DNA from: Synechococcus sp. UW69
Lineage (GTDB): Bacteria; Cyanobacteriota; Cyanobacteriia; PCC-6307; Cyanobiaceae
DNA: 64,000 nt
Assembly: GCF_900474185.1 (NCBI RefSeq)
Contig: NZ_UCNW01000008.1
Coordinates: forward strand, 434,001 to 498,000
Direction of reading: 5' to 3'
In this document: in pieces, positions 4,906 to 36,893 of the stretch
How the letters are laid out: the number at the start of each line of letters is the position of its first letter
Position numbering within the stretch: the stretch's first letter is position 1
Program-made: the position numbers and the translations under genes
Notes under the pieces: generated by a model
Databases searched by the model: none
The model's input: the letters and a program-made list of their open reading frames with translations, nothing else
Told to the model about the DNA's origin: nothing

Positions 4906-5447
4906 ACGCAGCTTGCGCGTGGACTGTGCTGCGAATTTCCTGGCTGCTGAGCCTTCTCATGCCCCTCCTGTTGATGGGAACTCCGGCCCAAGCCCTAGAC
5001 ACCTCCGCCGGGGCGGGGTTGCAGGACAGGGCCTTGTTCCAGGAAAAGGTGGATTACACGCTCACCAACCAAAGCAACGGAGATTTCCAGGGACAGAACC
5101 TGGCCAACACATCCTTTGCAGGAGCCGTTGGCCGCGGCGCGAATTTCCAAGGCGCCAACCTCCATGGGGCGATCCTCACCCAGGGGGCCTTTGCCGAAGC
5201 TGATTTCCGCGATGCTGATCTCTCCGATGCATTGATGGATCGCGCCGACTTCGTGGACACCGATCTACGCAACGCCGTGCTCACGGGGATCATCGCGTCA
5301 GGCAGCAGCTTCAGTAATGCCCAGATCGAGGGGGCTGATTTCACCGACGCCCTGCTCGATCGTGATGATCAACGCCGGCTTTGTCGGGAGGCGGAGGGCA
5401 TCAACCCCAGCACCGGAGTCGCCACCTTCGACAGCCTCGGATGCTGA
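4902..5447 (+). CDS. Secreted pentapeptide-repeat protein, likely thylakoid lumenal
   Basis: The N-terminus has a signal peptide (hydrophobic WLLSLLMPLLLMG followed by AQA), then about 70 residues later a run of A(D/N)LXX-type pentapeptides such as GANFQGANLHGA, EADFRDADLSDA and RADFVDTDLRNA, which fold as a right-handed quadrilateral beta-helix. Two cysteines near the C-terminus may form a disulfide. The GTG start overlaps the folC stop. Pentapeptide proteins with signal peptides are abundant in the cyanobacterial lumen, mostly of unknown role; the location is inferred and no enzyme activity is implied. Confidence 0.85.
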   Translation: MNAACAWTVLRISWLLSLLMPLLLMGTPAQALDTSAGAGLQDRALFQEKVDYTLTNQSNGDFQGQNLANTSFAGAVGRGANFQGANLHGAILTQGAFAEADFRDADLSDALMDRADFVDTDLRNAVLTGIIASGSSFSNAQIEGADFTDALLDRDDQRRLCREAEGINPSTGVATFDSLGC

Positions 5448-5450
5448 TCG

Positions 5451-21517: not shown

Positions 21518-22120
21518 ATGCCGATCGGTACTCCCAGCGTTCCTTACCGCCTCCCAGGCAGCCAGATGGAGCGCTGGGTCGACATCTACACCCGTCTTGG
21601 GGTGGAGCGGATCCTCTTCCTTGGCTCTGAAGTCAATGACGGCATCGCCAACAGCCTCGTGGCCCAGATGCTTTATCTCGACTCGGAAGACAGCAGCAAG
21701 CCGATTTACCTGTACATCAACTCCCCCGGCGGCTCCGTCACAGCTGGACTAGCGATCTACGACACCATTCAGTACGTCAAGAGCGAAGTCGTCACCATCT
21801 GCGTCGGCCTCGCCGCATCCATGGGTGCCTTCCTCCTGGCGGCCGGAACGAAAGGCAAACGTGTCGCTTTGCCCCACAGCAGGATCATGATTCACCAGCC
21901 CCTTGGCGGCACCAGCCGGCGCCAGGCCAGTGACATTGAAATCGAGGCACGAGAGATCCTGCGGATGAAGGAGATGCTCAACCAATCCTTGGCTGACATG
22001 AGTGGGCAGAGCTTCGAAAAGATTGAGAAGGACACCGACAGGGACTACTTCCTCAGCGCCGAGGAAGCCAAGGAGTACGGGCTCATCGACCGCGTGATCT
22101 CACATCCCAACGAAGCCTGA
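21518..22120 (+). CDS. clpP: ATP-dependent Clp protease proteolytic subunit (ClpP3 type)
   Basis: 200-aa serine peptidase subunit. The catalytic triad is complete: Ser101 in GLAASMGAF, His126 in IMIHQPLGG, and an Asp near 175 in [10 protein letters not shown]. The N-terminus [11 protein letters not shown] is the short loop that docks with ClpC/ClpX; no long propeptide is present. It pairs with ClpR upstream to form the essential ClpP3/R core that degrades proteins with ClpC in the cytosol. ilvC follows 62 nt later with its own leader. Confidence 0.95.
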
Positions 22121-22146
22121 TCTGAACGGGGCAGGCCGCTGCGTAA

Positions 22147-23178
<1,032 letters not shown>

Positions 23179-23232
23179 TTCAGCGCGAACACTGAACGCC
23201 CGGTGGGATCTCACTCCAGCACTCACCACACC

Positions 23233-23272
23233 CCCCGCTCTGCTGCCTTTTCGGTAGTGAGCGGGGATTTTT
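23233..23272 (+). terminator. Intrinsic terminator of ilvC
   Basis: CCCCGCTC (23233-23240) pairs with GAGCGGGG (23259-23266), with further pairing of CTGCC/GGTAG inside, followed by ATTTTT. It marks the end of the ilvC transcript and lies 26 nt before cobD. Confidence 0.9.
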
Positions 23273-23297
23273 GTTGGCTCCTGAGCGGTCCCCGCCA

Positions 23298-24317
23298 ATG
23301 AACTCAGGAGCGATGGGAAGCCTGCTGATCCTCGGGGCAGCCCTCTTGGATCAGCTGATCGGTGACCCGAGCCGGATGCTCCATCCCGTGGTGGTGATGG
23401 GCTGGTGGATCCGGCAGCTGCGGTGCAGGGTCGAGCAATGGGCTGGGGAGCATCCCATCAAGCTGCGCTTCGGGGGTGGACTGATCACCTTGATCCTGGT
23501 GCCTGGCAGCGCCCTTGCGGGCTGGAGCGTGGAGCGCCTGCTCTGGCTTCCCTCCCCATGGCAGTGGCTTGGCATCGCAGTTGTGACCCTGAGCCTTGCC
23601 AGCGCCCTGGCGGCCCGCAGCCTGACGGACAGCGTGCTGGCGGTACTGAACGCCCTTCCGCCATCGGCAGATGGCAACCTCGAACCGGCACGCCAGAAGC
23701 TGGGCTGGATCGTTGGACGAGACGTGCAGAACTTGGATCAAGCTGGGCTGCTCCGAGCTGCAGCCGAAACAGCCTCAGAAAACGCTGTAGATGGCGTGTT
23801 CGCACCGTTGTTCTGGATGGGCATCGGTGCGTTGCTCTGGATGGGCATGCCCTCAGGCCCAGGACCACTTGCTCTGGCCTGGGCCTTCAAGGCCAGCAGC
23901 ACGCTCGATTCCATGCTCGGCTATCGCACGGGTCGCCTGCGCTGGCTGGGAACGGCGGGTGCACGCCTGGATGATCTGCTCACCTGGCTGCCCTGCCGTC
24001 TGGTCATGCTGACGTTGCCCCTCGTCTGTCCTCCATGGACGCGCTGGGCGCAACGGGTGCAGTTAGCGGAACGGGATGGAGCGGCAGACCCATCACCGAA
24101 TGCAGGTCGCTCAGAAGCGATTTACGCCCACTGCATCGGGATCCAACTTGGCGGGGAAAACCGTTATGGAGAGCGCCGGGTTCTGAAACCGGTGCTTGGG
24201 GCTGGCCAGCCAACGGCCAACGTGCACCTCGTCAGATGTGTGCTCAACGCATCAGGGCGTCTTGAGACCCTCTGGCTGAGTGCTTTTGTGATCAGCCAGC
24301 TGGTGATCAGTCTCTAA
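23298..24317 (+). CDS. cobD: Adenosylcobinamide-phosphate synthase (CbiB/CobD)
   Basis: 339-aa integral membrane enzyme that joins aminopropanol (or its phosphate) to adenosylcobyric acid in cobalamin or pseudocobalamin synthesis. Conserved segments: DQLIGDPSRMLHPVVVMGWW at the N-terminus, GRDVQNLDQAGLLRAAAETASEN in outline, VDGVFAPLFW, and SSTLDSMLGYR. Several hydrophobic helices span the protein. The start is ATG 23298; ATG 23313 is the alternative. Marine Synechococcus make pseudocobalamin, so the gene is expected. The sugar transferase gene converges from the right. Confidence 0.9.
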   Translation: MNSGAMGSLLILGAALLDQLIGDPSRMLHPVVVMGWWIRQLRCRVEQWAGEHPIKLRFGGGLITLILVPGSALAGWSVERLLWLPSPWQWLGIAVVTLSLASALAARSLTDSVLAVLNALPPSADGNLEPARQKLGWIVGRDVQNLDQAGLLRAAAETASENAVDGVFAPLFWMGIGALLWMGMPSGPGPLALAWAFKASSTLDSMLGYRTGRLRWLGTAGARLDDLLTWLPCRLVMLTLPLVCPPWTRWAQRVQLAERDGAADPSPNAGRSEAIYAHCIGIQLGGENRYGERRVLKPVLGAGQPTANVHLVRCVLNASGRLETLWLSAFVISQLVISL

Positions 24318-24338
24318 ACACCTTTCAGCAGGAATCAA

Positions 24339-25097
24339 TCAATAAGCGCCCCGATCCATCGGCAGAAGCAACACACCAAACGTGCGCAGGATGATGGCGA
24401 GATCGAGGCTGAACGAACGACCACGCGCGTAGGCCAGATCGAGCTTGACGCGTTTCTTGTAGCTCAGATTGTTACGACCGCTCACTTGCCACAGCCCCGT
24501 CAAGCCTGGACGAACTGAAGCAACTTCATCCATGTATGGGCCATAACGGCTGAGTTCCTGATCAACGATGGGGCGAGGGCCGACCACACTCATCTCACCG
24601 CACAGGACATTCAAAAACTGCGGCAGCTCATCGAGACTCGATCGGCGAAGGAAACGACCCAAGGGAGTAATCCGGGGATCACGCTTCAGCTTGAAGTCAC
24701 GCTCAAACTCAGCCCGCAGAGATGGATCCGCCTCCAGAACGCGGGCCAAAACAGCATCGGCATCGGCGCGCATGGTGCGGAACTTGATGCAGCCGAAACG
24801 TTTGTAACCCCGGCCCACCCGACGCTGGGTGTAGAACACCGGGCCGGGCGAACTGAGCTTGACCAAGCCAGCCAGGAGCAGCAGCACTGGGGAGCCCAGG
24901 CCGAGAACGGCCAGAGAAAAAACGATGTCTCCAGTGCGCTTGAACACTCGGCCCCACCGGTTCTGATGGCGAATCAGAGCGACAGCCGGCAGAGCCGAGG
25001 GGGGAGCTGAGATCAGCGCAAGATGGGGCTTGTACTTGCCGCGGCGCGCAGGACGTCCTGCTGTCTGAAGCAAAGAGGGCCGAGAGGCCGAGGTCAA
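24339..25097 (-). CDS. Undecaprenyl-phosphate sugar phosphotransferase (bacterial sugar transferase)
   Basis: About 252 aa. The single N-terminal membrane segment ([20 protein letters not shown]) and catalytic block are those of monotopic phosphoglycosyl transferases: [79 protein letters not shown]. The Asp-Glu catalytic pair is in LDELPQ. It loads the first sugar phosphate on the lipid carrier for exopolysaccharide or O-antigen. The start is uncertain: TTG 25097 is chosen, TTG 25073 is possible, and no ATG lies before the conserved region. The glycosyltransferase upstream ends 31 nt away, forming one operon. Confidence 0.88.
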
Positions 25098-25128
25098 AGG
25101 CTCAACCTGGGACTCACCACACTCAACG

Positions 25129-26358
25129 TCACAGGCGGAGTCCTGGCATCTCCGCGGGGTCACTCGCTGCAACGTCACAGCCGCGGCGATGGGCCTGCCA
25201 GGCCGCTTGCAGAGCAGATTCAAAGCGTGCGGCGAATGCTTCGGGCCTAAAGCGCTCGGCCCACTGACGGATGGCTTCCGAATCGAAGGAACGCCAGATC
25301 CGGCCTTGCTCAAACCACTCCACAGCCTGAACAAGCGACTCGACGGTCTGCTCGGGGAAGAGCACCCCTGTGGGCTCCCTCACCCCGGCCGCTGCACAAC
25401 GCACCGTGTCCAACAAACCACCACGCCCCAAGCCGATCACCGGAGCGCCAGCGGCCATCGCTTCAACAGGAGCAATGCCGAAATCCTCAAGCCCGGCATA
25501 AACAAACCCGCGACATCGGGACATGAGCTCCTCCACCTGTGGCCCGGACTGGCGGCCCAGCAAGGTGACGGTTGGCCCTGCCAGGGCCTCCAGCCGAGCA
25601 CGCTCCGGCCCGTCCCCGACCACAAGGAGCGGCAGTCCCAACCGGTTAAAGGCTTCCACCACCAAATCCACCCGCTTGTAAGGGACCAAACGGCACAAGC
25701 AGAGGTAAACATCGTCCCGAGCTGCATCCCAGCGAAAACGATTCACCTCCACGGGTGGATGGATCACGCTGGCCTCCCGCCCCCAATACTTGCGAATTCG
25801 GCGTGCTGTGAAACGGGAATTGGCAATCAGGTGATCCACACGCTGAGCACTGAGTTGATCCCACTGGCGCAGGGCATGCAGCTGCCAGCGAATCAAGGGC
25901 CCGAGGCCGCGCCGCGCCAGCGCCGAGCGCTGCAGATAAGCGTGCATCTGATCCCAGGCGTAACGAACCGGTGTATGCACATAACTGATGTGCAACTGCT
26001 CCGGCCCGGTCAGCACACCTTTGGCCACCAGGTGGCTGCTGCTGATCACCAGCTCAGCTGCGCCGAGATCGATCTGTTCCACAGCAAAAGGCAACAGAGG
26101 CAGGTACTGCTGCACATGGCTACGCCCCCAAGGCAGGCCTTGAATCGGGCTAGTCAAGACGGATCGGCCCTGCAACCAACTGCCAGACCGGCAGGATTCG
26201 GCATCAATTAGGGCGGCCAGCTGTGGCTCGCAGCCGCGGCTTTGCAGCAGGGAATCGATCGTCTCAACAACACGTTCAGCTCCGCCGACCGAGCGTGGTG
26301 AGAACCACTCGTGAACCAGAGCGATCCGCTGCGGGAATTGGTCCGAAGCCGAGGGCAT
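25129..26358 (-). CDS. Glycosyltransferase family 4 (WbaZ-like)
   Basis: 409-aa GT-B enzyme. The N-domain has HEWFSPRSVGGAERVVE, with the GG loop, and SSHLVAKGV, SYVHTPVRYAWD. The C-domain has the GT4 core CRLVPYKRVDLVVEAFNRL, VVGDGPERARLEALA, and the donor motif EDFGIAPVEAMAAGAPVIGL with the E-x7-E pair. It probably adds a nucleotide-sugar (mannose-type in WbaZ relatives) during surface polysaccharide assembly. It is the first gene of a two-gene operon with the sugar transferase, at the left edge of a variable region. Confidence 0.87.
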   Translation of the reverse strand: MPSASDQFPQRIALVHEWFSPRSVGGAERVVETIDSLLQSRGCEPQLAALIDAESCRSGSWLQGRSVLTSPIQGLPWGRSHVQQYLPLLPFAVEQIDLGAAELVISSSHLVAKGVLTGPEQLHISYVHTPVRYAWDQMHAYLQRSALARRGLGPLIRWQLHALRQWDQLSAQRVDHLIANSRFTARRIRKYWGREASVIHPPVEVNRFRWDAARDDVYLCLCRLVPYKRVDLVVEAFNRLGLPLLVVGDGPERARLEALAGPTVTLLGRQSGPQVEELMSRCRGFVYAGLEDFGIAPVEAMAAGAPVIGLGRGGLLDTVRCAAAGVREPTGVLFPEQTVESLVQAVEWFEQGRIWRSFDSEAIRQWAERFRPEAFAARFESALQAAWQAHRRGCDVAASDPAEMPGLRL

Positions 26359-26423
26359 CCAGCCGGAATGATGCGAACGATACGAAGTCTCTCAGCTGAT
26401 TGCAGGACCCTGCCGAGGTCACG

Positions 26424-26699
26424 ATGCTGGTCCACATGTCCATGTCCAGCACGAACCTCACCATCAACATCCTCCTGGAAGAGGCGTTGAACGAACCGGA
26501 CATCGGCACGACGAGCCGGTTCCGTTGGCATGCAACGGCAGTGGGGATCGCTGCGCTCTGCATTGACAGTGCTCCACCATCAACACCCCCCTTTGAGGAT
26601 GCACTTAAAGAGGGGCTCAATGTGGGCCTCGATCTCAGCCGAGAGGAACGAGAGTTCCATCAAGTGGAACAGGGATTGGTGCTCTTGTTCCACTCCTAG
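26424..26699 (+). CDS. Possible hypothetical protein (91 aa)
   Basis: Plus-strand frame starting MLVHMSMSSTNLTINILLEE and ending EQGLVLLFHS. The acidic, helix-prone C-terminal half (EDALKEGLNVGLDLSREEREF) looks like coding sequence, but no family is recognised and no clear Shine-Dalgarno is seen. The opposite strand is also open over most of the interval, so the choice of strand is weak. It is divergent from the glycosyltransferase and precedes the P-loop gene. Confidence 0.35.
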   Translation: MLVHMSMSSTNLTINILLEEALNEPDIGTTSRFRWHATAVGIAALCIDSAPPSTPPFEDALKEGLNVGLDLSREEREFHQVEQGLVLLFHS

Positions 26700-26824
26700 G
26701 AAGATCAACTGGAGCCATCTCGAGGCGTTGCAGCGAAGCAACGCCAAAGTCACCGGAAGTCTTCAGAAGGAAAAGACGGCCTCCGACATGCAGAATTGCA
26801 GCCGGCGAGAAGGCATAGGACGCC

Positions 26825-27415
26825 ATGAGACTTAAGACCAATGGGCGGCGCGCTCGCCACGTGATCGTGATCGCAGGTGCATCGGGCTCCGGCAAAACGC
26901 AGTTGATCCGAAAGATGAGCCAGCCGCCACATGATCCATTCACCTTGAAGGTGCTGAAACACCTGGACTGCGATCCAAATCAACGCCTGAAACGTTCGAC
27001 CGTTGAACGCATGCAGCGGCTGATGAATCCAGCCAATTTCAAGAAACAAAAAACACGAAAGCTGAAATACTGCTTACTGCTTCATATCGACCTGACCAGC
27101 ATTAACCACCACAGCAACTTGAAGCTTTTGCGACAGATTTCAACGCGCGCCAAACGCCTCGACATCATTACTCTCTACACCTCACCCAAAGAATGGCGCC
27201 AGCGCATCTTTGATCGCCTCCACACCGACAATGAACCATCCATGCGAGCAGCATTGATAGCCCTTTCAGGGAAACTAAGCAGCAATTTATCTAATTTCTT
27301 GTATCACAGGGAATACAAGAAGTGGCTTAAAGTGATTCAAGGCTACAACATCCAGACGAACTGCATTGCCAATACATTTGAGCAATCGCTTTTAAAATCT
27401 ATACCGCCTTCTTGA
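26825..27415 (+). CDS. P-loop NTPase/kinase-like protein
   Basis: 196 aa with a clear Walker A motif, GASGSGKT at residues 18-25, after a basic N-terminus. The rest suits a small nucleoside-kinase fold: LLLHIDLTSI may serve as Walker B, IITLYTSPKEWRQRIFDRL resembles an Arg-rich lid, and the C-terminus is Lys and Asn rich. No named family is assigned. Base composition falls sharply towards the 3' end, unlike the GC-rich core, suggesting transferred DNA. The stop lies in a 9-bp AT-rich inverted repeat, CTTGAAAAA/TTTTTCAAG (27411-27430), which may end the transcript. Its neighbours are polysaccharide genes, so a role in surface sugar modification is possible, not shown. Confidence 0.6.
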   Translation: MRLKTNGRRARHVIVIAGASGSGKTQLIRKMSQPPHDPFTLKVLKHLDCDPNQRLKRSTVERMQRLMNPANFKKQKTRKLKYCLLLHIDLTSINHHSNLKLLRQISTRAKRLDIITLYTSPKEWRQRIFDRLHTDNEPSMRAALIALSGKLSSNLSNFLYHREYKKWLKVIQGYNIQTNCIANTFEQSLLKSIPPS

Positions 27416-27481
27416 AAAATGTTTTTCAAGACCAGAAGCGATTCACAAATTTCCCAACTGCTCTACGCCAACCAATAAAAA

Positions 27482-27493
27482 ACGGAGAGGGTG
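27482..27493. other. Candidate distal attachment-site copy of the tRNA-Ser island
   Basis: ACGGAGAGGGTG is an exact 12-bp direct repeat of the 3' end of tRNA-Ser(CGA) at 31099-31110. It lies just before the gene-free hairpin array, where the left end of an island inserted at the tRNA 3' end would be expected. Confidence 0.55.
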
Positions 27494-27612
27494 TTCGTAG
27501 ATTTAGGGATCAGATAGGACTCCTTGGAACCGTTAAGGACGTTTTACTGAAATCGTCTGCCGTTTCCACCAACACTTCCACCAACACATCTGGTGGGAAC
27601 ACCTGGAACCTC

Positions 27613-28348
27613 AAAAAAAGACCCCCGAGGTGCCCACACCTCAGAGGTCCCGTCCTCTCGTTCTGACGCCCCATCACCTTCCTCCTGGTCTCTGGCGATG
27701 AGGAGTGGGAGAACCGTCAGAAGTGGTGGTGAGGACCGTTCATGGTTCGGTCGTCCGTAAGCAATAAAAAAGGCGGCAGGGAATGCCGCCACGAAGGGGA
27801 CGTATGCGTCGAAGGTGCTGGACTCGCCAGCAGCACCACCCTCCTCAAACCAACAGGGGTGGCGTGGGCGCCGTTTACGAACTGCCAAAAAAAAGGAGGG
27901 TCCCTAATCCCTCCCCGTACGACGCATCGTCCCCTCACCGAAGGGAACGAGTCGAAGATGACGGAAGAAATACCTACGAGTCGTCGCCATCACGACAAAA
28001 CGTCGCTGGTGTGAGGCAACCAAGAAAAAGGAGGGTTCCCTAGTCCCTCCCTCGATGACGCATTCACCCCTTCCGAAGAAGGTTGAGCGGATGATCGCCA
28101 CGCCACGGACCTGGTGCCATCCGTAGAAGCGCGCATTTGAAAGGGGGGTGCGGGACCCCCCTAAAGGTCGTTGAGACCTGGTTACTGCTTCAGCGGTCTC
28201 TGACCTCATTCCCGTTCTAAGGCGCTTCAGAGAACCAGGACATGAGCGGAACTACTCCTCAAGGGCACAAAAAAAGGAGCGGTATCCCTATCGCTCCTTC
28301 GGAAACTGAAAGTGCCGCTGGTGGCAACCAAGGAGGAAGCGCCTCCTT
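27613..28348 (-). repeat. Array of seven spaced terminator-like hairpins
   Basis: A 736-bp stretch without a credible gene carries seven hairpins, spaced about 60-155 bp: 27613-27649, 27766-27790, 27887-27914, 28025-28051, 28143-28161, 28269-28299 and 28330-28348. Five have a run of five to eight A on the plus strand just before the stem, so on the minus strand they are textbook terminators. The stems differ but keep pairing (GGAGGG/CCCTCC, GGAGCG/CGCTCC, GGCGGC/GCCGCC), while most loops keep TCCCTA or a variant. Linking sequence is partly shared: GCGTCAT or GCGTCGT before the hairpin and CTTGGTTGCC after it recur on the minus strand. Function unknown. Confidence 0.75.
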
Positions 28349-28554
28349 CAATGACGCCAAATCTGATGTCCACAACTGGAGCACTGCCAAGCAGGGTCGT
28401 CACCGCTGAGGACACACCCGCCCACAACGACCTTGCCTGCCTCCAAATCCTTCTCCAGTTGCGGAGTGAAAACAGGCATCCCCCAAAGGATCTTCGCCAC
28501 AGGTGCGTGACTGCACTTGGGGCACTTGGAGGGTTTGCGATCTCGTCTATCCAC
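28348..28554 (-). CDS. Small zinc-ribbon protein (68 aa)
   Basis: GTG-started frame with two CxxC pairs, CPKC near residue 11 and CSSC near residue 58, separated by LWGMPVFTPQLEKDLEAGKV and GGCVLSGDDPAW. This matches a widespread small zinc-ribbon family of unknown function recognisable by the GGC-SGDDP segment. It starts 10 nt after the nuclease stop, so it ends an operon of island genes. Its stop codon lies in the first hairpin of the array, whose minus-strand reading would terminate the operon. Confidence 0.75.
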   Translation of the reverse strand: MDRRDRKPSKCPKCSHAPVAKILWGMPVFTPQLEKDLEAGKVVVGGCVLSGDDPAWQCSSCGHQIWRH

Positions 28555-28563
28555 CCTTGAGCG

Positions 28564-29493
28564 TTAAGAGGCAGGGATCAGGTTGAACTTGACCTCGTAG
28601 CGGTAGAACTCGATGCCCTGGGCGATCTGAAGTGCTCTTCTGATCCGCTTGTCATCGTCCAAAGCGATGATCACGCCCCGAACCCGCTGGTGGTCCTCAG
28701 CGATCTCCTCCAGGACGTACCCCATGTACCTCTGGATCTGTCCGAACACCGCATCGCTGGCACGTCCCCTCTTCAGTTCGACGACAAGCAACTCCTGCTT
28801 GTCCTTGCTGATGGCGAGCAAATCGATTGGACCCGTATCCGTTGGGAACTGCTGCCCGCCTGACTCTTCCGTTTCGTAGAGGTCATGCGTTCTTCCAAGA
28901 GGAGTGCTGGACCAGTTGGCGACCAAGAAGTCCTCAAGGTGCTTCTCCAGAGCAAAGACCGTGGCGTCCTCAACGGTTGGGTCCTGACTAACGAGTGCCT
29001 GGGTCTTCGCCTCACCCTTGATCAGTTGCTCTAATTCCTCCCTGTATTTGGAGACATTGCTGACCGTTCCGATGGACCCCGCAGAGTTCCTCAGCGATTC
29101 GCTCAGATCGGAACGATCAACAAGTTCCTCATGCCAGGCGACAGGACGCTGATGTGGTTGCTCGTTGCCAGCGACATAGCGGTAGTCACCTGTCACTTCA
29201 CCAACGAAATAACGCCCCTGCCCGTTTGGGGACAGCACGATGTCGCCAACCTGAATCCCCTTTGAGATGGTCCACAGGAATCCACAGGCAAGACCTGCAG
29301 ATCCTTTGCTCTTCTCTGGGAACACCTCCTGGTAAATCGGTCTGATCTGCTGGGTGAACTGCCTTTGCTCACCACCCAAAAAAATTGTCAGGTCCTGGTC
29401 AATGCCGAAGTGAGCACCGATAAAACCCTGCTGACGGCAGACCTCGGCATACATGCTCCCCCTTCCCAACATCACTCGGAAGTAGTCCTTCAA
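28564..29493 (-). CDS. PD-(D/E)XK nuclease, NucS/Mrr-like, with N-terminal recognition-type domain
   Basis: About 309 aa in two parts. The N-terminal half (YFRVMLGRGSMYAE, ACGFLWTISKGIQVGDIVLS, YFVGEVTGDY) resembles the small beta domain that precedes some restriction nucleases. The C-terminal half holds the nuclease core DLLAISKDKQELLVVELKRG, with Asp and Glu-x-Lys in place. It is probably a restriction or repair endonuclease. The TTG start at 29493 overlaps the upstream stop (TTGA), matching translational coupling; TTG 29523 would add ten residues. It sits with hsdR remains and a YgjP-like gene, a setting typical of defence islands. Target DNA type is unknown. Confidence 0.7.
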   Translation of the reverse strand: MKDYFRVMLGRGSMYAEVCRQQGFIGAHFGIDQDLTIFLGGEQRQFTQQIRPIYQEVFPEKSKGSAGLACGFLWTISKGIQVGDIVLSPNGQGRYFVGEVTGDYRYVAGNEQPHQRPVAWHEELVDRSDLSESLRNSAGSIGTVSNVSKYREELEQLIKGEAKTQALVSQDPTVEDATVFALEKHLEDFLVANWSSTPLGRTHDLYETEESGGQQFPTDTGPIDLLAISKDKQELLVVELKRGRASDAVFGQIQRYMGYVLEEIAEDHQRVRGVIIALDDDKRIRRALQIAQGIEFYRYEVKFNLIPAS

Positions 29494-30197
29494 AGCAGTG
29501 ACCTCCCCGAGATCTTCAACCAATCCCTGTGATCAGCGTATGCAGGGTCAAACCGCCCTACCAACGCCCAGAAGTCCTTGGAGTGATTGGGATGGACCAG
29601 GTGGCACAACTCATGGACCACCACATAGTCAGCAATGGCATGAGGTGCCTTGATGATGTTCCAGTTGAAGAGCAACTGACCTCGGGAATCACATGATCCC
29701 CAACGGGACTTGAGGTTGCGAACACTGATCCCTGAAGGCGACACGCCGATCTGCTCGGCATAGCGATTCGTCTTATCCGTGAGTCGCTCTAGTGCTCTGG
29801 TCTTGTACCAAGAGTCCAGATACTGCTGGATTCGCTGCTGGCGTTGCTCTCCCTGCTCAGTGGGGCGGATCGTTGCTTGGAGGTATCCCCCAGAAAGGCA
29901 GACCCCAACTTGATGCCCGTCCTGCACCTTCAAGCGGTAGTTGCGACCCAGGTACGGGAATGACTCGCCACTGACCAATTCCTTGGTCTTCTGGGGTGGC
30001 ATTCGCTTGAGTTCAGCGACCTTGCTGACGATCCAAGGGCGCTTCTGCTGAAGGATTGCTGCCACCCGCTCGTCGCCAAGATCCTGAGGGACACGCACCT
30101 GGAGGTCGCTGCCAACGATGTGGAGAGCAGCAGTTCGCCTTAAAGAACGAACCACCTCAACCTTCAGACCCAGCACCTCCTCGGGGATAGCGGTCAT
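29490..30197 (-). CDS. YgjP/SprT-like zinc metallohydrolase
   Basis: 235 aa with the metal-binding helix VVVHELCHLVHPNHSKDFW (HELCH at about 195-199 and a further His near 205). RNLKSRWGSCDSRGQLLFN lies upstream, the strongly conserved block of the DUF45/YgjP family. The protease activity is inferred from the motif; substrates are unknown. YgjP-like genes often lie beside type I restriction genes. The start ATG overlaps the hsdR-remnant stop by four bases and its stop overlaps the nuclease TTG, so all three are translationally coupled. Confidence 0.85.
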   Translation of the reverse strand: MTAIPEEVLGLKVEVVRSLRRTAALHIVGSDLQVRVPQDLGDERVAAILQQKRPWIVSKVAELKRMPPQKTKELVSGESFPYLGRNYRLKVQDGHQVGVCLSGGYLQATIRPTEQGEQRQQRIQQYLDSWYKTRALERLTDKTNRYAEQIGVSPSGISVRNLKSRWGSCDSRGQLLFNWNIIKAPHAIADYVVVHELCHLVHPNHSKDFWALVGRFDPAYADHRDWLKISGRSLL

Positions 30198-30940
30198 TGG
30201 AATCTGACCTTGGCGAGGTCCATGAAGCGATCAGTCACCTCAGCAATGAGTTCCTTGGTTCCAAAAGAGCGATCAAGGATGGACCGCTTGATCTGACGCT
30301 TGATGGTTTTCATCTCATCGTCCTTCTGGAAGAACCCAACGATCTGCGTTGCTTCCTGGAACTCTGCGACCAGTTCCTTGGTCAGATCTAGGACCTGCTG
30401 GTGGGTCTCTTCGTCCATCGCTCCATCGCCCACTGCCTCTGTGACCTCCTTCATCAGCACCCGATAAAAGGCACCCTCCTCATCTGAGAGACCAAGGTCA
30501 GCGTCCTGCTGGGTCTTCTCCTTCTCCATGCCGTCACGGAACAGCAGAAGTTGCTGAACCAACTCTTCCCAGCGGTTCTCACACTTCTGGATGATCTCCT
30601 GCAAGCGCAGTGAGAGGGACTGATAGTACTCAGGGTCCTCGTCCAACTTGACCTTGATGTGCGCCTTGATGGCGTTCTCCACCTCTGACGCCTTCGCTCT
30701 GTCATTCGTCTGAGCAGCGAGGACCTGCTCAAACTCCACATCAAAGAGTTTGGTGGGAGGGACACGGGGATCAACTCCCGTGGCACGGACATGCTCCTCA
30801 ATCAGGTCTCGGACCTTTTCACCGCACCCAACGATGTCCAACTGCTCGTCCCGATAGCGGTTGCGGCATCCGATGACGACCTTGCCCAGTGACTTGAGGT
30901 CAGCAAGGAAGGGATTAGCAGCAGCAGTGATGGAGATGCG
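30194..30940 (-). pseudogene. hsdR: C-terminal remnant of a type I restriction subunit R
   Basis: The frame resembles the C-terminal helical part (DUF3387) of HsdR: residues read LFDVEFEQVLAAQ, ENAIKAHIKVKLDEDPEYY, LSLRLQEII, DEEGAFYRVLMKE and end KELIAEVTDRFMDLAKVRF. A complete HsdR is about 1000 aa; here only about 215-248 codons survive and the frame is closed upstream by a TGA at 30941-30943. No helicase or nuclease motifs and no hsdM or hsdS are present. A TTG at 30841 could still start a 215-aa product. The break lies about 160 bp from tRNA-Ser, consistent with deletion at the island edge. Confidence 0.7.
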
Positions 30941-31098
30941 TCAGAGGGGTGATGGATACGGAACCATTGCTTCCGCCATGGGGATGACTGACTCAATGGT
31001 TCGGCGGATCCTTCAGCAGCAGCAGCAACAGCAATGAACGACCAGGAGGAGGAGAACCTGTGCCGTTCCATCTACGACGCGATCAGGACTATTTAGAT

Positions 31099-31110
31099 AC
31101 GGAGAGGGTG
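31099..31110. other. Candidate tRNA-proximal attachment site of the tRNA-Ser island
   Basis: ACGGAGAGGGTG covers the last 11 bases of tRNA-Ser and one flanking base and is identical to 27482-27493. Integration at tRNA 3' ends with such short direct repeats is standard for tyrosine-recombinase islands; no integrase remains between the copies. Confidence 0.55.
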
Positions 31111-31186
31111 GGATTCGAACCCACGAGGGTGTTACCCCTACACGATTTCGAGTCGTGCGCGATCAACCGGACTCTGCCACCTCTCC
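31100..31186 (-). tRNA. tRNA-Ser(CGA)
   Basis: 87-nt class II tRNA on the minus strand: acceptor GGAGAGG/CCTCTCC, discriminator G, anticodon stem CACGA/TCGTG around CTCGAAA (anticodon CGA), a long variable arm and T-arm GTGGGTTCGAATCCCAC. Its 3' end faces the island and contains the 12-bp repeat also found at 27482. Confidence 0.95.
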
Positions 31187-31211
31187 ACACGTCCGAAGAC
31201 GTGTAGGAACT

Positions 31212-33053
31212 TTAGAGGCCAATGAACCGCGAGCCAGCCCAATGCTGCAGAAGCCAACGGCGCTGCGGTGCAGAAGGCTTGAAGCCAAGCCATGTTCCAG
31301 TGAAAACCTGCGGGGAACCTGAACGCTGTTGCCCCTGCTGAGTCCACAACGCCTGAGGCCTAGGCAGCAACTGCCAGCGCTGCCATCCCGCCCGCAACAC
31401 CAGTGATCCCGTGCGGTGCTGCGGGCGGTGCACCGACAAGCCATCACTCCGCAGCATCTTGCCTTTGGCAATTGGAGGGCGGCCCTGCTGAGGGGCCTCG
31501 ACGTGGTGTGCCAGCGCTTGCCAACAGGGGAGCACATCCGTGGCCACGGGATCCAACAACATCACCCAATCCAGGCGGGAGTGACCATGCACCGTGGCGA
31601 TCCGTTGGGCCATTCGGCAACTCCGATCATCGCCATGGGTGCTCACCAAAGCAGCACGCCCACGATGACGAGCCAGCAACCAGTGGCGACCAAAATGCTC
31701 GACCGCCAGGAGGCCATCGGAGAGCTGCAACAAGCCGTGGGCCAGCAAGGCAGTTGCCATTGGGAGCAGGGCCCAGCGCCGGCTCCAAGCACTTGCCCTC
31801 AGCAGCCAGGGCAACAAGCCCACAACCAGCAGCGCAACAACCCACCCCTGGGGGCGCCCAGTGAGCAGTTGGGCTCCAGGCCATTGACTGATCCAAATCG
31901 AGATGGCCATCACCAGCCCCGCCATCTGCTGCACCGGCCACAGCAGCAGGGGCAGAACGGACGGAGGCAACACCAACGCCAACAGCGCCGACAACATGGC
32001 CAGCAATGTCAGAGGTGCCAGCAGCGGAGCAACCAGAAGATTGGCGAGTAAGGCGTAAAGCGGCATCGCACCAAAGTGCAGCAACTGCAGGGGCAGCGTC
32101 CAGAGAAGAGCCGCGATGGGGATGGAGAGCGCCGCGGCAACGCCGCGACAGCAATCAGGCAGGCAACCTTGAACAGCCTGCTCCAGGCGTGGAGCCGTAA
32201 GGATCAATCCAGCGGTTGCTGCTGCACTGAGTTGAAAGCCGATCGACAGGGCCCAGCCAGGCCGAAACAGCAGCATCCCGCTGAGTGTCAGCAGAAGCAC
32301 GCCGAGCGGACGGCTGTGATGGCCTGACTCACGAATCAGCAATGCGATCGCAGCCATCAGCACCGCCCGCACCACTGATGGCTGGGCCCCGGCAAGACAG
32401 ACAAACAGCAGCAGCGAAAGACCAGCCAGAGGGAGCCTCAGGCAAGGGGCCCAATGGCGGGCCAGCATCAGCACACTGCCCAGCAGCACTGACAAGTGAA
32501 AACCCGATGCAGCGAGCGCATGGGACAAGCCGGCAACGCGGAACGCCTGTCGCACGTCTTCGGGGAGCTGCACCTGGGCGCTGCCTAGAACCAGGGCGGA
32601 CAGGAAGGCGCCCCGCCGCGGCCCTACGGCCTTCTGAAGCCGCTGGGCAACATCACGCCGCAGATCAACCAAAGGTGTCGGTGGACGCCGCAGAACCTCG
32701 ATGCTGTCGAGCCTGAGTCGAGTCCAACTGCCTTGGCGGGCCAGACGCTCCGCCGATCCCGGCAACAATGGGTGCGCACCAGGCATCGGACGCCGCAGAA
32801 CCCCAGTTGCTTGGACGCGCCAGCCCTGGAGCAGCGTTGAAGCGCAGTTAGGGAGCTGCAACTCAGTGCGCCCCATGGCCCGGTGGCCCTCAACCCGATC
32901 CACCTCCAGCAGGACAGAACACCCTGAGGGGAAACGCCGCACGTCGGCGACCAATCGACCACTGATCACCACCGCTACTGACGGCGTCTGAATCAGGCGC
33001 GATGGATCAGATCGACTCGGCGTCGGCGCTCCCCACAGCAATCCTCGAAGCAC
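31212..33053 (-). CDS. comEC: ComEC/Rec2-family competence protein
   Basis: About 613 aa, a polytopic membrane protein. An N-terminal OB-like DUF4131 region (VAVVISGRLVADVRRFPSG) is followed by the Competence domain with FLSALVLGSAQ, AGLSHALAASGFHLSVL and VRAVLMAAIAL, several helices, and FQLSAAATAGLI. The C-terminal part has HWLLARHRGRAALVSTHGDDR, where longer ComEC proteins have a metallo-lactamase domain; here it is short and lacks HxHxDH. ComEC carries single-stranded DNA across the inner membrane during natural transformation. The first start is a GTG at 33053, but hydrophobic codons continue upstream to a stop, so a rare start may add a helix. Confidence 0.88.
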   Translation of the reverse strand: MLRGLLWGAPTPSRSDPSRLIQTPSVAVVISGRLVADVRRFPSGCSVLLEVDRVEGHRAMGRTELQLPNCASTLLQGWRVQATGVLRRPMPGAHPLLPGSAERLARQGSWTRLRLDSIEVLRRPPTPLVDLRRDVAQRLQKAVGPRRGAFLSALVLGSAQVQLPEDVRQAFRVAGLSHALAASGFHLSVLLGSVLMLARHWAPCLRLPLAGLSLLLFVCLAGAQPSVVRAVLMAAIALLIRESGHHSRPLGVLLLTLSGMLLFRPGWALSIGFQLSAAATAGLILTAPRLEQAVQGCLPDCCRGVAAALSIPIAALLWTLPLQLLHFGAMPLYALLANLLVAPLLAPLTLLAMLSALLALVLPPSVLPLLLWPVQQMAGLVMAISIWISQWPGAQLLTGRPQGWVVALLVVGLLPWLLRASAWSRRWALLPMATALLAHGLLQLSDGLLAVEHFGRHWLLARHRGRAALVSTHGDDRSCRMAQRIATVHGHSRLDWVMLLDPVATDVLPCWQALAHHVEAPQQGRPPIAKGKMLRSDGLSVHRPQHRTGSLVLRAGWQRWQLLPRPQALWTQQGQQRSGSPQVFTGTWLGFKPSAPQRRWLLQHWAGSRFIGL

Positions 33054-33113
33054 AAGGAGTACCAGTAGGCAGAGGGCAACGCCATCAACGGAAAGACGTC
33101 GACTCAGACACCA

Positions 33114-34004
33114 TTACGCCGCTGTCTCGAGAGTTCCCCCCTCCAGCAACGGAAAGCCCAAGGCCTCCCGTTCCGCCAGCCAGCCCTCGGCCACCTTACG
33201 GGCCAGGTTGCGGATACGACCGATGGTGGCCGTGCGTTCGGTCACGGAAATCACGCCACGGGCTTCCAGCAGGTTGAAGGTGTGGCTGCACTTCAGAACG
33301 AAATCCAGGGCCGGCGCAGGCAGTTTCTGCTCGATCAAATCAGAGGCTTCAGCCTCATAGATGGCAAACAACTGCTTAAGCCGCTCAGGATTGGCGGCCT
33401 CGAAGTTGAAATGGCACTGGCCCTTTTCAAACGGCAACCAGATCTCGCCATAGCTGCGCTTGCCGTTCCAGCTCAGATCCCAGATGCTTTCAACGTCCTG
33501 GAGGTACATGGCCAGCCGTTCCAGGCCGTAGGTGATCTCAATGGAAACCGGCTTGCAGTCAATGCCTCCGCATTGCTGGAAATAGGTGAACTGGGTGACC
33601 TCCATGCCATCGAGCCAGACTTCCCAGCCCACTCCCCAGGCCCCGAGAGTGGGGGATTCCCAGTTGTCTTCGACGAAACGGATGTCGTGATCAGCGGCCT
33701 TGATGCCCAGAGCCTCGAGCGAAGCCAAATAGGTCTCCTGAATGCCATCGGGAGACGGCTTAATCAGCACCTGGTACTGGAAGTAGTGCTGAGCCCGATT
33801 GGGGTTATCGCCATAGCGACCATCGGTGGGGCGGCGGCAGGGTTCGGGATAGGCCACGGCCCAGGGTTCGGGGCCTATGGCACGAAGCACCGTGTGGGGA
33901 CTCATGGTGCCGGCACCCTTTTCCGTGTCGTAGGGCTGCAGCAGCAGACACCCCTGGTCCGCCCAGAACCGGTTAAGCGTGCTGATGATGTCCTGGAAGT
34001 GCAT
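33114..34004 (-). CDS. glyQ: Glycyl-tRNA synthetase alpha subunit
   Basis: 296-aa class II synthetase catalytic subunit, acting with GlyS as a heterotetramer. Motifs: [21 protein letters not shown] in outline, [23 protein letters not shown]-type motif 2 region ([14 protein letters not shown]), [20 protein letters not shown] and QQCGG. The start is ATG 34004 ([10 protein letters not shown]). The mobile element is integrated exactly here: its right end carries a displaced copy of the first codons (GTGCATTTTCAGGACAT), so the start codon, ribosome site and promoter now come from the element. The protein is intact. Expression from an element-borne promoter is inferred. Confidence 0.96.
33988..34004. 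other. attL candidate inside glyQ
   Basis: ATGTCCTGGAAGTGCAT; shares 14 of 17 positions with 43261-43277, including an identical 8-bp core ATGTCCTG. It encodes codons 1-6 of glyQ on the minus strand. Confidence 0.7.
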
Positions 34005-34232: not shown

Positions 34233-34793
34233 TCAATCGCCCTTGTCCCTGGGCGGGGGGCATCCGTGCTTCTGGATCCAGTTGAGTTCCTTCTGGCGCT
34301 GCCGCTGCTGCCTGTAGAACTCGCGACGATCCTCAAAGGCAGGCGGTTTATCAACGCTGCTGAACGCCCAGGACTTGTACGCCCTCATCAGATCGGGATC
34401 TGGGTTCTTGCAGTTCTGGTCCTTCCCAGTGCATCCATGCCTTAATCGGTCCCACTGGTAGTGCTCTGCGAGTGCAGAACCCTCGTTATCCACCAGGTAC
34501 TGATGGAGGGTCTTGCTCTCACCACAGCGAAGGCACTTGAAGCGATACCCGTCGGGGTTAGTGGTCCAGAAGAACGAGGAGGTCTGCTTATTGCGCTTGG
34601 ATGCCCCTGATGGATAGCGATGACTGCAGTACGGACACATCTTGCTCTTGAAAACCTTCAGTCCTCTCGCAGTGATGGTGCATTGGGGTCTCGGATGCAG
34701 ACTCTCAATAATCTGTTCATCCAAAGAACGGATATAAGGACGCTTCTGATGGTCATCCAAAAAATCTTTTTTGTAGTAGTTGGGGATATTCAT
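34233..34793 (-). CDS. Element-borne zinc-finger protein (186 aa)
   Basis: Starts MNIPNYYKKDFLDDHQ at ATG 34793. Two CxxC pairs, CPYC near residue 53 and CLRC near 87, make a zinc ribbon of the sort seen in phage and satellite replication or transcription proteins. The C-terminal third is rich in Arg, Gln and Lys (EFYRQQRQRQKELNW) and may bind nucleic acid. No catalytic motif is seen, so primase or regulator remain guesses. It lies next to the left end, transcribed towards glyQ, and its mRNA could read into glyQ. An upstream start would add 38 less plausible residues. Confidence 0.65.
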   Translation of the reverse strand: MNIPNYYKKDFLDDHQKRPYIRSLDEQIIESLHPRPQCTITARGLKVFKSKMCPYCSHRYPSGASKRNKQTSSFFWTTNPDGYRFKCLRCGESKTLHQYLVDNEGSALAEHYQWDRLRHGCTGKDQNCKNPDPDLMRAYKSWAFSSVDKPPAFEDRREFYRQQRQRQKELNWIQKHGCPPPRDKGD

Positions 34794-34880
34794 TTGTGTT
34801 GATTTGTTAATAGTGTGGAGAAAGTGGGGAGTAAGTGTATAAATAACTCTGGCAAGTTTCAGTGATTGAGTTCTAGAGTC

Positions 34881-34987
34881 CTTAAGGTCCTTAAGTTCAC
34901 TGTTCAAGGAAACTGGAGAACTAGATCCTCAAGACCACTGTTCAAGAGAAACTCAAATTCCAACAACCATTAAGTTCACTGCTCAAA
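34881..34987. promoter_or_regulatory. Repeat cluster upstream of the zinc-finger gene
   Basis: A perfect inverted repeat CTTAAGG-T-CCTTAAG (34881-34895) is followed by three direct copies of CACTGTTCAAG (34898, 34936, 34977; the last CACTGCTCAAA), spaced 38 and 41 bp. Placed between divergent genes, they suit an operator or iteron set. Confidence 0.5.
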
Positions 34988-35085
34988 AGAAGAACAGAAA
35001 CAAATAAAATGACTCCTCAAGAGTCCTGAATCAAGTCATACAAGGCAATCTGACCTAAATACACTTAAGAAGAGCAGGGATACTA

Positions 35086-35262
35086 ATGAGCAACATCATC
35101 CAGAAAGCACCGAAGAAGAAGCACATCAGTTACTCCTCCAGAGAGGAATACATCACTGACCTTGAAGAGATGCTCATGCAGAAGTACAGAGTTGGATACT
35201 CTGCTCTGCACAAGCGTCTAGTTGTGGAAAAAAGCAATCAGTTACTCAACTTGAATAATTGA
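35086..35262 (+). CDS. Small basic element protein (58 aa)
   Basis: ATG with an AGGGA ribosome site a few bases upstream opens a 58-codon frame MSNIIQKAPKKKHISYSS through LNLNN. The N-terminus is lysine-rich and the middle is a helix (REEYITDLEEMLMQKY). No family is recognised. Its end overlaps the converging 124-aa gene by 17 bases. Small basic helical proteins of this kind in mobile elements are often DNA-binding, but no motif proves it. Confidence 0.55.
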   Translation: MSNIIQKAPKKKHISYSSREEYITDLEEMLMQKYRVGYSALHKRLVVEKSNQLLNLNN

Positions 35263-35620
35263 GTATTTTATTTTTGATCTCATCCTGATCAGCGCAATAT
35301 GAACACTTAAAATACCAATCGCCAGAGGGTGTATCAGATATATGATCACCTACTTTAAGAAACAAATGATCCAACACCATAAAATGATAATGCTCCTCTT
35401 TATCAGAAGGTTCATGTTCAAATAAACCGCTATGGGCGATAAGTTTGTAGACATCACAAGGGTCTTTGTATTGTTCTTCAGGATCATCTTCATCTAATCC
35501 AAAAACAGCAGCGATATCAGATCCAAAGGCACTCCAGTAAGTCTTCACCTTAAAGATGCTGGTTGATTGTTCATCGCATGGGAGTTCAATGCGATGCATG
35601 TATTGAACAACTAATTCCAT
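35246..35620 (-). CDS. Element-borne hypothetical protein (124 aa)
   Basis: Starts MELVVQYMHRIELPCDE at ATG 35620; a TTG at 35653 would add 11 residues. The protein is acidic (GLDEDDPEEQYKDPCD) with a histidine-rich centre (EHEPSDKEEHYHF) and a C-terminal WYFKCSYCADQDE resembling half a zinc ribbon. No function recognised. AT-rich composition sets it apart from the core genome. It is divergent from the 303-aa gene across a repeat-bearing control region. Confidence 0.6.
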   Translation of the reverse strand: MELVVQYMHRIELPCDEQSTSIFKVKTYWSAFGSDIAAVFGLDEDDPEEQYKDPCDVYKLIAHSGLFEHEPSDKEEHYHFMVLDHLFLKVGDHISDTPSGDWYFKCSYCADQDEIKNKILNYSS

Positions 35621-35754
35621 AAGTAATTTGAGTAAGTTTGTTGGACGAATCAAAAGTATTCAGCTCGGTTCTATGAAGTGCTGCTCTATTCGCCTTGTTT
35701 GTCCCGAAACTGCAGGGCGGATGAACCCTTTCGCTTCATGGACCAAAGCATAGC

Positions 35755-35970
35755 ACGACATTCTCTTGCAGAGACCGTCATGTGCTGGGTCCGAGACAGT
35801 CTCAATATAAGGCAACATTTCTGCACAGAGACTGTCGTATCTCTGCACCAAGACCTGTCCTGCAAATAAGAATGCAGGTTTTTTAGTAGTTGCTGTCTGG
35901 GGATTGAGGTTCCTCTAGGAACGACAACCAATATCAGAGAACGTCATTGATCAAGTGCAGAGAACGTCAT
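35755..35970. promoter_or_regulatory. Five-copy operator-like motif AGAGAACGTCRT
   Basis: Copies: 35755-35766 (minus, AGAGAATGTCGT), 35770-35781 (AGAGACCGTCAT), 35827-35838 (AGAGACTGTCGT), 35936-35947 and 35959-35970 (both AGAGAACGTCAT, 23 bp apart). A sixth, AGAGAACGTCGT, is on the minus strand at 39287-39298, just upstream of the recombinase gene. The interval 35621-35981 has no credible gene. A shared operator for two element promoters is the simplest reading. Confidence 0.6.
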
Positions 35971-35981
35971 ACCTTGAGGTC

Positions 35982-36893
35982 ATGAAGAAAGCAGATGCAG
36001 CAACCTCGGTCACGGGATTCCTGGAGATCCTCGCTGCAGGATCCATGGATACATCTGAAGGGGTTCTTCTCATCGGCAAAACGATCAGGAGCGCCAAGGA
36101 GACCCTTAGTGACCCCGATTTCAAAGACCTCCGTGATCGGTGGGGCAAAGGGCAGAAGATCTGGTCAAAACTCCTTCAGATCGGACTTGATGACCGTCTG
36201 CCTCCACTGAAGGAGCACTTACCCACCTCCTACACAACGATCCACCAGGTTCACTGCCTTACAGACGAGGAACTGAAGGAAGCACTTGATAGTGGTGCTC
36301 TTCACCCGAAGGTCTCACAAGGAGTCCTCGCTCGTTGGTTGAAGGAATACCGCTTCCAGGGATCCACGGGAACAGTCCCAACAGAGTTCAGACCAATCAG
36401 CACAGTCTTGGGTCCGCCCGACCTGGATCCAGAGCACCTAAACCGCTTTAAGGACGACCTAGACAAACTCGCGACGACCTACGGGTTCAAGGTGGTTCAT
36501 GAGGAGGAGAACTCTTCAGTCGCACTGCGCCAGAGGAGGAACAAAGATCGCTCCAACGTCATGGTGGGAACACTCATGAAGGATCTTCGGAGCACCTGGG
36601 ACGGTGCTCCAACGGAACTGAAGACCCTGTTCAAACTCAAGTCGCTAGATGAACTAGTTCAAGGTCAGATGTCTGACTTCACAGGGTTCTTGAACCGAGT
36701 GAGGAGAGGACGAGATCAGTTCTGGACGTTTCATGCTCATGACTACATCCACAAGATCGCCTTGGAGTACCTGAAGACCGAGAGCAGAGGTCAACGCTTC
36801 AACTACCGCAGAAGGTTGCGGGAAGTTGCTGAACAACACCCTCACGTCGCGGAAAAGGTCCAGGTCACCCTTGAGGACTGGATGAAATATTGA
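35982..36893 (+). CDS. Element-borne hypothetical protein (303 aa)
   Basis: No family recognised. It is soluble, helix-rich and charged, with segments such as LIGKTIRSAKETLSDPDFKD, HQVHCLTDEELKEALDSG and a basic C-terminus (RRRLREVAEQHPHVAEKVQV). The HQVHCLTDEEL helix and its spacing suggest a helix-turn-helix-like first half, but this is weak. ATG 35982 is chosen although GTG 35955 is open, because the bases between them form one copy of the repeated motif also seen before the recombinase gene. The strong motif cluster upstream suggests tight control; this could be the element's regulator. Confidence 0.6.
   Translation: MKKADAATSVTGFLEILAAGSMDTSEGVLLIGKTIRSAKETLSDPDFKDLRDRWGKGQKIWSKLLQIGLDDRLPPLKEHLPTSYTTIHQVHCLTDEELKEALDSGALHPKVSQGVLARWLKEYRFQGSTGTVPTEFRPISTVLGPPDLDPEHLNRFKDDLDKLATTYGFKVVHEEENSSVALRQRRNKDRSNVMVGTLMKDLRSTWDGAPTELKTLFKLKSLDELVQGQMSDFTGFLNRVRRGRDQFWTFHAHDYIHKIALEYLKTESRGQRFNYRRRLREVAEQHPHVAEKVQVTLEDWMKY

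Follow-up and report, generated by a model that had tools for sequence, protein, structure and literature searches.

Tandem arrays of small RNAs are already known from cyanobacteria. In Nostoc sp. PCC 7120, the ~60-nt sRNA NsiR1 is encoded in 12 tandem copies that have individual promoters and lie beside hetF (PMC9045159). Non-coding RNAs are also found in genomic islands, with 9 of the 21 ncRNAs of Prochlorococcus MED4 falling within its 5 islands, and a reduced set of regulatory proteins has been reported for Prochlorococcus (PMC2518516). Multi-copy RNAs include Yfr103 of marine Synechococcus and some Prochlorococcus, which is 290-328 nt long, has seven paralogs in CC9605, where it accounts for 55.2% of mdRNA-Seq reads, and is present in CC9902 and KORDI-100 (PMC5069720). 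The same lineage has the short sRNAs Yfr1, Yfr10 and Yfr2-5, some of them multi-copy, and the members of the Yfr2 family are described at distant loci and not in arrays (PMC6778093, PMC1242208, PMC2662882).

The locus described here lies in a window of 64,000 nucleotides from Synechococcus sp. UW69 (the whole stretch of DNA that was analysed). It probably consists of distinct minus-strand sRNA genes arranged in tandem and belonging to integrative genomic islands found in marine Synechococcus. It resembles the NsiR1 array, whose copies are partly divergent, in being cyanobacterial and in having short non-coding units that follow one another head to tail along a single strand. Whereas NsiR1 is one RNA, as far as the accessible text of that report goes, at least six unit types occur here in a conserved order and in islands, and a promoter-like block is clear only for U1; NsiR1 itself is ruled out by the different host group and neighbour genes. 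The RNA-like units share an island location with the MED4 ncRNAs, but the latter are mostly single, and the accessible part of that report describes no ordered multi-RNA cassette (PMC2518516). The comparison is best read as showing a variant of the NsiR1-type arrangement in which the new element is an island-borne row of different units, arrayed unlike the Yfr2 family. No earlier description of the array was found in the accessible text of the literature searched, and some units may already be in print.

A preliminary description had reported seven minus-strand hairpins in 736 bp, five of them with T runs, and this is borne out: reading of the sequence places seven hairpins across 27618-28347, and a strict terminator scan lists exactly these five on the minus strand of the 736 nt (Table 1). 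The same scan gives no terminators on the plus strand of 27500-28400 and at most two in any 736-nt stretch of the remaining 64 kb, and 300 dinucleotide shuffles of the stretch yield a mean of 0.24 (sd 0.43, maximum 2). A looser consensus scan of 22000-34000 detects only a mild excess, with 15 terminators found versus 11.1 expected. Of the sequence features reported with the hairpins, the common spacer pieces are real (ATGCGTC and TTGGTTGCC on the minus strand), while the supposedly conserved loop TCCCTA, or TAGGGA in the RNA sense, is shared by three hairpins of the row, those at 28273, 28028 and 27893, and the hairpin at 27772 has the complementary TTCCC (RNA strand). The stems do vary along the row as claimed, but compensatory change is demonstrated only between genomes.

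Table 1. Features of the array, its insertion site and the accompanying genes (window coordinates).
Feature	Position	Strand	Remarks
tRNA-Ser (CGA)	31099..31187	-	3' end is one copy of the 12-nt repeat
Type I restriction R, C-terminal piece	30194-30841	-	cargo, tRNA-to-array interval (28348..30841)
YgjP-like peptidase	29490-30197	-	cargo
NucS_C-like nuclease	28564-29523	-	cargo
Small ORF	28348-28554	-	cargo; weak zinc-finger match below curated cut-off
Seventh hairpin (GGAGG/CCTCC)	about 28333-28347	-	lacks a T run; immediately upstream of U0; outside strict terminator list and outside units
U0	28266..28321	-	near-invariant; 13 copies in 23 regions
Hairpin	28273-28300	-	T run; strict scan; U0 terminator; loop GGGA
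U1	28132..28256	-	structured RNA; model match 133.6 bits; covariation over 46 sequences
U1 promoter-like box	about 28241-28255	-	putative, from conservation pattern
U1 TTAGAA	about 28215-28220	-	putative promoter and start site, from conservation pattern
U1 hairpin 1	28164-28207	-	within structured RNA U1
Hairpin	28142-28162	-	hairpin 2 of U1; missing from strict terminator list
U2	28020..28128	-	linker ATGCGTC; solitary relatives exist
Hairpin	28028-28052	-	T run; strict scan; U2 terminator; loop TAGGGA
U3	27889..28017	-	linker; 27920-27935 complementary to U4
Hairpin	27893-27916	-	T run; strict scan; U3 terminator; loop TAGGGA
U4	27764..27890	-	27796-27811 is complement of U3 linker
Hairpin	27772-27790	-	T run; strict scan; U4 terminator; loop TTCCC
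U5	27615..27770	-	C/U-rich CCCACTCCTC stretch
Hairpin	27618-27651	-	T run; strict scan; long terminator of U5
Direct repeat CACCCTCTCCGT of tRNA-Ser 3' end	27482..27493	-	122 nt past U5; candidate attachment site, far insert end

The row resolves into a head-to-tail succession of several related RNA-like units with a common orientation; there are six types (U0 to U5), and two of them, U2 and U3, match one another. Segmentation of the window and 22 fetched regions, 23 in all, by profile searches seeded from the window's units recovers 19 copies of U1 and 23 each of U4 and U5, along with near-full copies of U2 (21) and U3 (22), whose 3' halves correspond; the unit rows share descent, and counts over them are thus not independent. 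The order U0-U1-U2-U3-U4-U5 is constant across the 23 regions save losses and repeats. Regions and genomes are denoted by L and G numbers. The array of L010, a region of the window's own genome, has U1 and U5 only, with U1 directly abutting U5 as it also does in L108. Region L060 has U0, U1 and U5. U1 is missing from the first array of L045 and U3 from the second of L048, an extra U2 stands ahead of U1 in L046 and L053, and U1 is present three times in L049. Shorter versions comprise U3-U5 only (L055, L056, L057, L059, L061), U4-U5 (L063) and U2-U3 (L009). The U0 unit has a mean column identity of 92% over 12 aligned copies, and an exact pattern taken from it occurs in 3 records, which belong to Synechococcus sp. 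MU1642 (contig NZ_VTKZ01000015.1), to the MAG Synechococcus sp. ARS1019 and to a MAG of an uncultured Synechococcus.

Arrays in related Synechococcus are located beside tRNA-Ser, tRNA-Phe and tRNA-Cys and in other places. A search of its own genome with the array region gives 8 matches, the region itself included, and the array DNA matches 23 of the 34 genus genomes (E<=1e-3, solitary modules counted), with U1 itself present in 14 of the 34. Second genomes with covarying units do exist, as the units recur across the genus and U1, U3 and U5 covary. The array has no match among phages and plasmids, an origin from either being rejected on this basis, and none among viral contigs by exact patterns, which miss diverged copies. 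Two further features were observed in array-related regions. Two genera (L108 3185-3356 and L117 9555-9719) contain U4-U5 fragments whose breakpoints are near-identical (U4 from 53/54, U5 to 104), and a reading frame of ~80 aa, beginning MTEENSSKETSNKCGGKNK in L045 or with a close variant, lies between the two arrays of L045 (about 5320-5580), L048 and L049.

Judged by their indels, units U1-U5 are non-coding. Open reading frames overlap the array on both strands, yet indels break these frames, and a protein-coding function is rejected: counted against the first row of each unit alignment, indels that are not multiples of three number 40 of 44 in U1, 54 of 54 in U2, 42 of 51 in U3, 35 of 56 in U4 and 23 of 27 in U5. 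Comparison across genomes reveals compensatory change in 5 of 20 predicted pairs of U3 and 6 of 21 of U5, in none of the 7 pairs of the U4 hairpin, and RNAalifold returned no consensus pair for the U2 alignment used. Within the genus U1 is near-invariant, with compensatory change in 1 of 26 pairs. Relatives detected with the U1 model extend to 43 of 400 family genomes and 17 of 59 genera, and in the alignment of 46 sequences 92.8% of cells are paired and 19 of the 26 pairs are altered on both sides, the first figure being biased upward in that the structure guided the alignment and three weak matches (E 0.004-0.018) are among its sequences. When the partner is shifted by one column in the same alignment, pairing is 57%. 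This strong covariation marks U1 as a structured RNA. The U3 model has a smaller reach, with matches in 37 of 400 genomes and 2 of 59 genera. Close-set U1-type copies, two or three together, are also seen in other genera (G122:C1:2201363-2201794; L114; L115).

The preliminary description had also stated that no known family fits. Rfam 15 agrees, giving no credible match to the units at gathering score in the window, 15 U1-type loci, 7 further loci and 17 solitary-element loci, although the NsiR1 tandem array and the Prochlorococcus island ncRNAs are close precedents. For the Yfr103 RNA, an imperfect palindrome spanning -29 to -58 is reported (PMC5069720). The box before U1 is similar to it. 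The distance from the start of U1 to the end of U3 is about 320-328 nt in G002, near the length of Yfr103. Matches to the U1 model at E<=0.01 number 2 in G002, 0 in G001 and 0 in G006. We take G002 to be CC9605, and G001 and G006 to be CC9902 and KORDI-100. If these strain identities are right, copy number and distribution both disagree with U1 being Yfr103, in a comparison that covers U1 only. The GGAAACA loop that marks the 5' hairpin of Yfr2-5 is found in some Prochlorococcus-like U1 relatives; the window's U1 has a loop without this motif and conserves its stems and not its loop, and is rejected as a Yfr2-5 member. The Rfam family RF01117, considered as Yfr2, proved to be a different family. 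A CsrA sponge of the CsrB/RsmY type is likewise rejected, as CsrA (PF02599) is present in 0 of 29 relatives including the window's own genome, with control genomes positive in 3.

Each unit would yield a short non-coding RNA closed by its own terminator, and this proposal would account for the presence of many terminators in so short a stretch. The U1 unit has a recognizable plan. A conserved box (GGTAGTTCC.CTCATG) is separated from TTAGAA by a variable stretch, and a further variable stretch, this one short, leads to a conserved hairpin. Its relatives in small, Prochlorococcus-sized genomes have the identical plan, often with AAAACAGGTGTTTT. In several of these genomes, U1-type elements (L097-L100, L102, L114) lie just 5' of a small, conserved frame whose translation begins MSLIPRWEYMTDDAKAMTKR, the RNA and the frame being placed as if one promoter served both. 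At other chromosomal sites, 20 regions with solitary elements were fetched, 19 of which were grouped and one (L142) left out as dissimilar. Types S (8) and S' (6) are relatives of the U2/U3 3' module and have a conserved box, a spacer, a -10-like motif and a short two-hairpin RNA-like segment, and solitary U3-like copies form a third group (5). In the solitary element L154 the box is retained despite a different upstream sequence. The conservation pattern suggests the positions of the putative transcription start site and promoter of U1. Within the array no convincing -10 was seen for U2-U5, and a consensus scan of 22000-34000 gave no sigma-70-type promoter, a consensus that may not suit cyanobacteria.

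That no array unit but U1 shows a clear promoter-like block, that the units are contiguous with their order kept, and that hairpin 2 of U1 ends in TTCTT or TTTC, short of a full T run, would all suit a terminator ladder, in which a single promoter, either that of U1 or one upstream, generates nested RNAs as variable 3' ends of one long regulatory RNA. This explanation is unlikely, as the terminators are strong by the strict scan, U3-U5 or U4-U5 exist without U1 in six regions (L055, L056, L057, L059, L061, L063), and solitary U3-like and S-type elements exist without any other units. Transcription of the units as separate sRNAs is the reading we prefer. The preliminary description had listed a tandem small-RNA array among its options, and this option draws support from the ordered recurrence, the non-coding nature of the units, the covariation of U1, U3 and U5, and the solitary relatives, of U1 as well as of the U2/U3 module, with promoter-like boxes.

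The window array sits within an insert of ~3.6 kb behind tRNA-Ser, and its placement at an island edge in the preliminary description was right, the insert being missing in relatives and a 12-nt repeat of tRNA-Ser lying at its end. The 12-mer CACCCTCTCCGT occurs in the 64 kb only at 31099 and 27482, on the strand of the tRNA, and turns up in 1 of 1000 shuffles of 26400-31090; at 12 nt the repeat is short. Empty sites are represented by L127 and L136, which have nothing of the sequence from about 27320-27410 to 31091; L128, L133 and L135 are also without the neighbouring P-loop gene, and L125 has a different gene there. Both a direct repeat of the tRNA 3' end and an empty site in relatives, features of a tRNA-targeting integrative element, are therefore present. 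The interval between tRNA-Ser and a glycosyltransferase gene ranges from about 0.5 to 45 kb across genomes and is longest in G007, where a tyrosine integrase adjoins the tRNA-Ser. A truncated tyrosine integrase is found past the array in G251, resolvase-like genes lie near five array regions (two confirmed by Pfam), and a ParA-like gene is near the array of L009; no integrase gene is present among the scanned ORFs of the window insert. Other observations at this hotspot include the P-loop protein itself (26825-27415, plus strand), which has AAA_33 and Zeta_toxin matches just below cut-off and adjoins the insertion site in several genomes, and three copies of the tRNA-Ser 3'-end 12-mer in L126 (1247, 4020 and 7601), a region without array units that perhaps reflects stacked insertions of another element. 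Further along the window, G+C is 0.38-0.44 at 34500-35999 versus 0.55-0.65 leftward, perhaps a second island.

The genes between tRNA-Ser and the array read toward the array, which is positioned between this cargo and the far end of the insert. The window insert retains only the C-terminal piece of a type I restriction R protein, beside the YgjP-like and NucS_C-like genes, and L108 4766-8442 (minus strand) encodes a 990-aa HsdR and a YgjP-like protein in the same order as in the window, before the array. In L108, which belongs to another genus, the complete HsdR and YgjP-like genes are followed by U1 and U5 and the start of the YgjP-like protein is nearly identical to that of the window, so the gene and the array probably moved together. 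The position of the array after HsdR and YgjP in G251, as in the window, together with the cargo orientation, would fit an insulator, a terminator cluster that shields host genes from island transcription or the reverse. We regard this as the least probable of the explanations considered, since insulation requires no unit-specific sequence, no order and no covarying hairpin that is not a terminator (U1), since no cargo separates the tRNA from the array in G002, and since the solitary relatives have promoter-like boxes.

The row could alternatively function as DNA, with the units serving as recombination, attachment or protein-binding sites of the island or arising by MITE-like expansion. An attachment-like repeat lies 111-232 nt past U5 in 6 of 22 full U5 copies, and in G002 (L120) the two repeats of the window recur, at 165 and 1219, with the array (249-1108) as the only sizeable feature between them. 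Whole blocks of units come and go, as in the U1-U5 junctions of L010 and L108 and the second array of L048, several copies have resolvase-, ParA- and integrase-like genes nearby, and the linker site is present in both orientations. However, the repeat is absent from 16 of the 22 U5 copies, no second copy of a tRNA 3' end was found in the stretches fetched at the tRNA-Phe and tRNA-Cys loci, and homologous recombination between related terminators would equally produce block changes. The changes in U1, U3 and U5 are also compensatory in RNA terms, and promoter-like boxes are retained by solitary relatives, which together make a DNA-level module very unlikely; the MITE-like expansion raised in the preliminary description is without positive support.

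For the array read as sRNA genes, the unit RNAs may act in trans through base pairing. The U2 and U3 units share a linker and loop with the chromosomal solitary RNAs and, on that account, may act on the same partners. Within the window, a singly bulged duplex of 16 bp can form between AGGGGACG-ATGCGTCG of U3 and U4, and U3-U4 is the sole pair with p<0.001 of the 28 unit pairs tested, the next being U0-U5 (p=0.026). Local complementarity was used because full-length duplex energies between units were uninformative (lowest p 0.020). Across loci, whose rows are related and hence not independent, p<=0.05 is reached in 18 of 21 comparisons of U3 with U4 and 19 of 22 of U2 with U4, against 15 of 120 jointly for seven other unit pairs, of which U3 with U5 is highest (5 of 17). 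Solitary RNA-like elements pair with U4 at p<=0.02 in 9 of 15 comparisons, and in the window's own genome neither of two solitary elements pairs significantly with its U4.

These complementarities raise the prospect of a transferable RNA circuit in which U2 and U3 mimic chromosomal sRNAs, via the linker around TGCGTCGA and the AGGGA loop, and U4, with its complementary TTCCC loop, is their antisense counterpart, an arrangement that we consider rather doubtful. The weak step is the role of U4, which may act as an anti-sRNA to U2 and U3. Predicted folds leave only the smaller part of the U2, U3 and S linkers unpaired, with mean unpaired fractions of 0.36, 0.17 and 0.15 (0.51 for U4), which counts against this idea. 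The partly palindromic nature of the site itself is a further point against it. For co-evolution between U3 and U4, matched loci pair no better than mismatched ones, 774 of 5000 permutations reaching the matched value; for U2 and U4, matched loci pair better, and 39 of 5000 permutations reach the matched value. Should the circuit exist, islands would be able to retune host RNA regulation or to shield themselves from it.

Taken together, the array recurs, is island-borne and mixed in content, and keeps its order, and from its sequence the units are most likely sRNA genes. The unit coordinates and covariance models allow direct testing of this in existing transcriptomes. If it is true, an ordered, transferable cassette of different RNAs would be a way for islands to import their own regulation.
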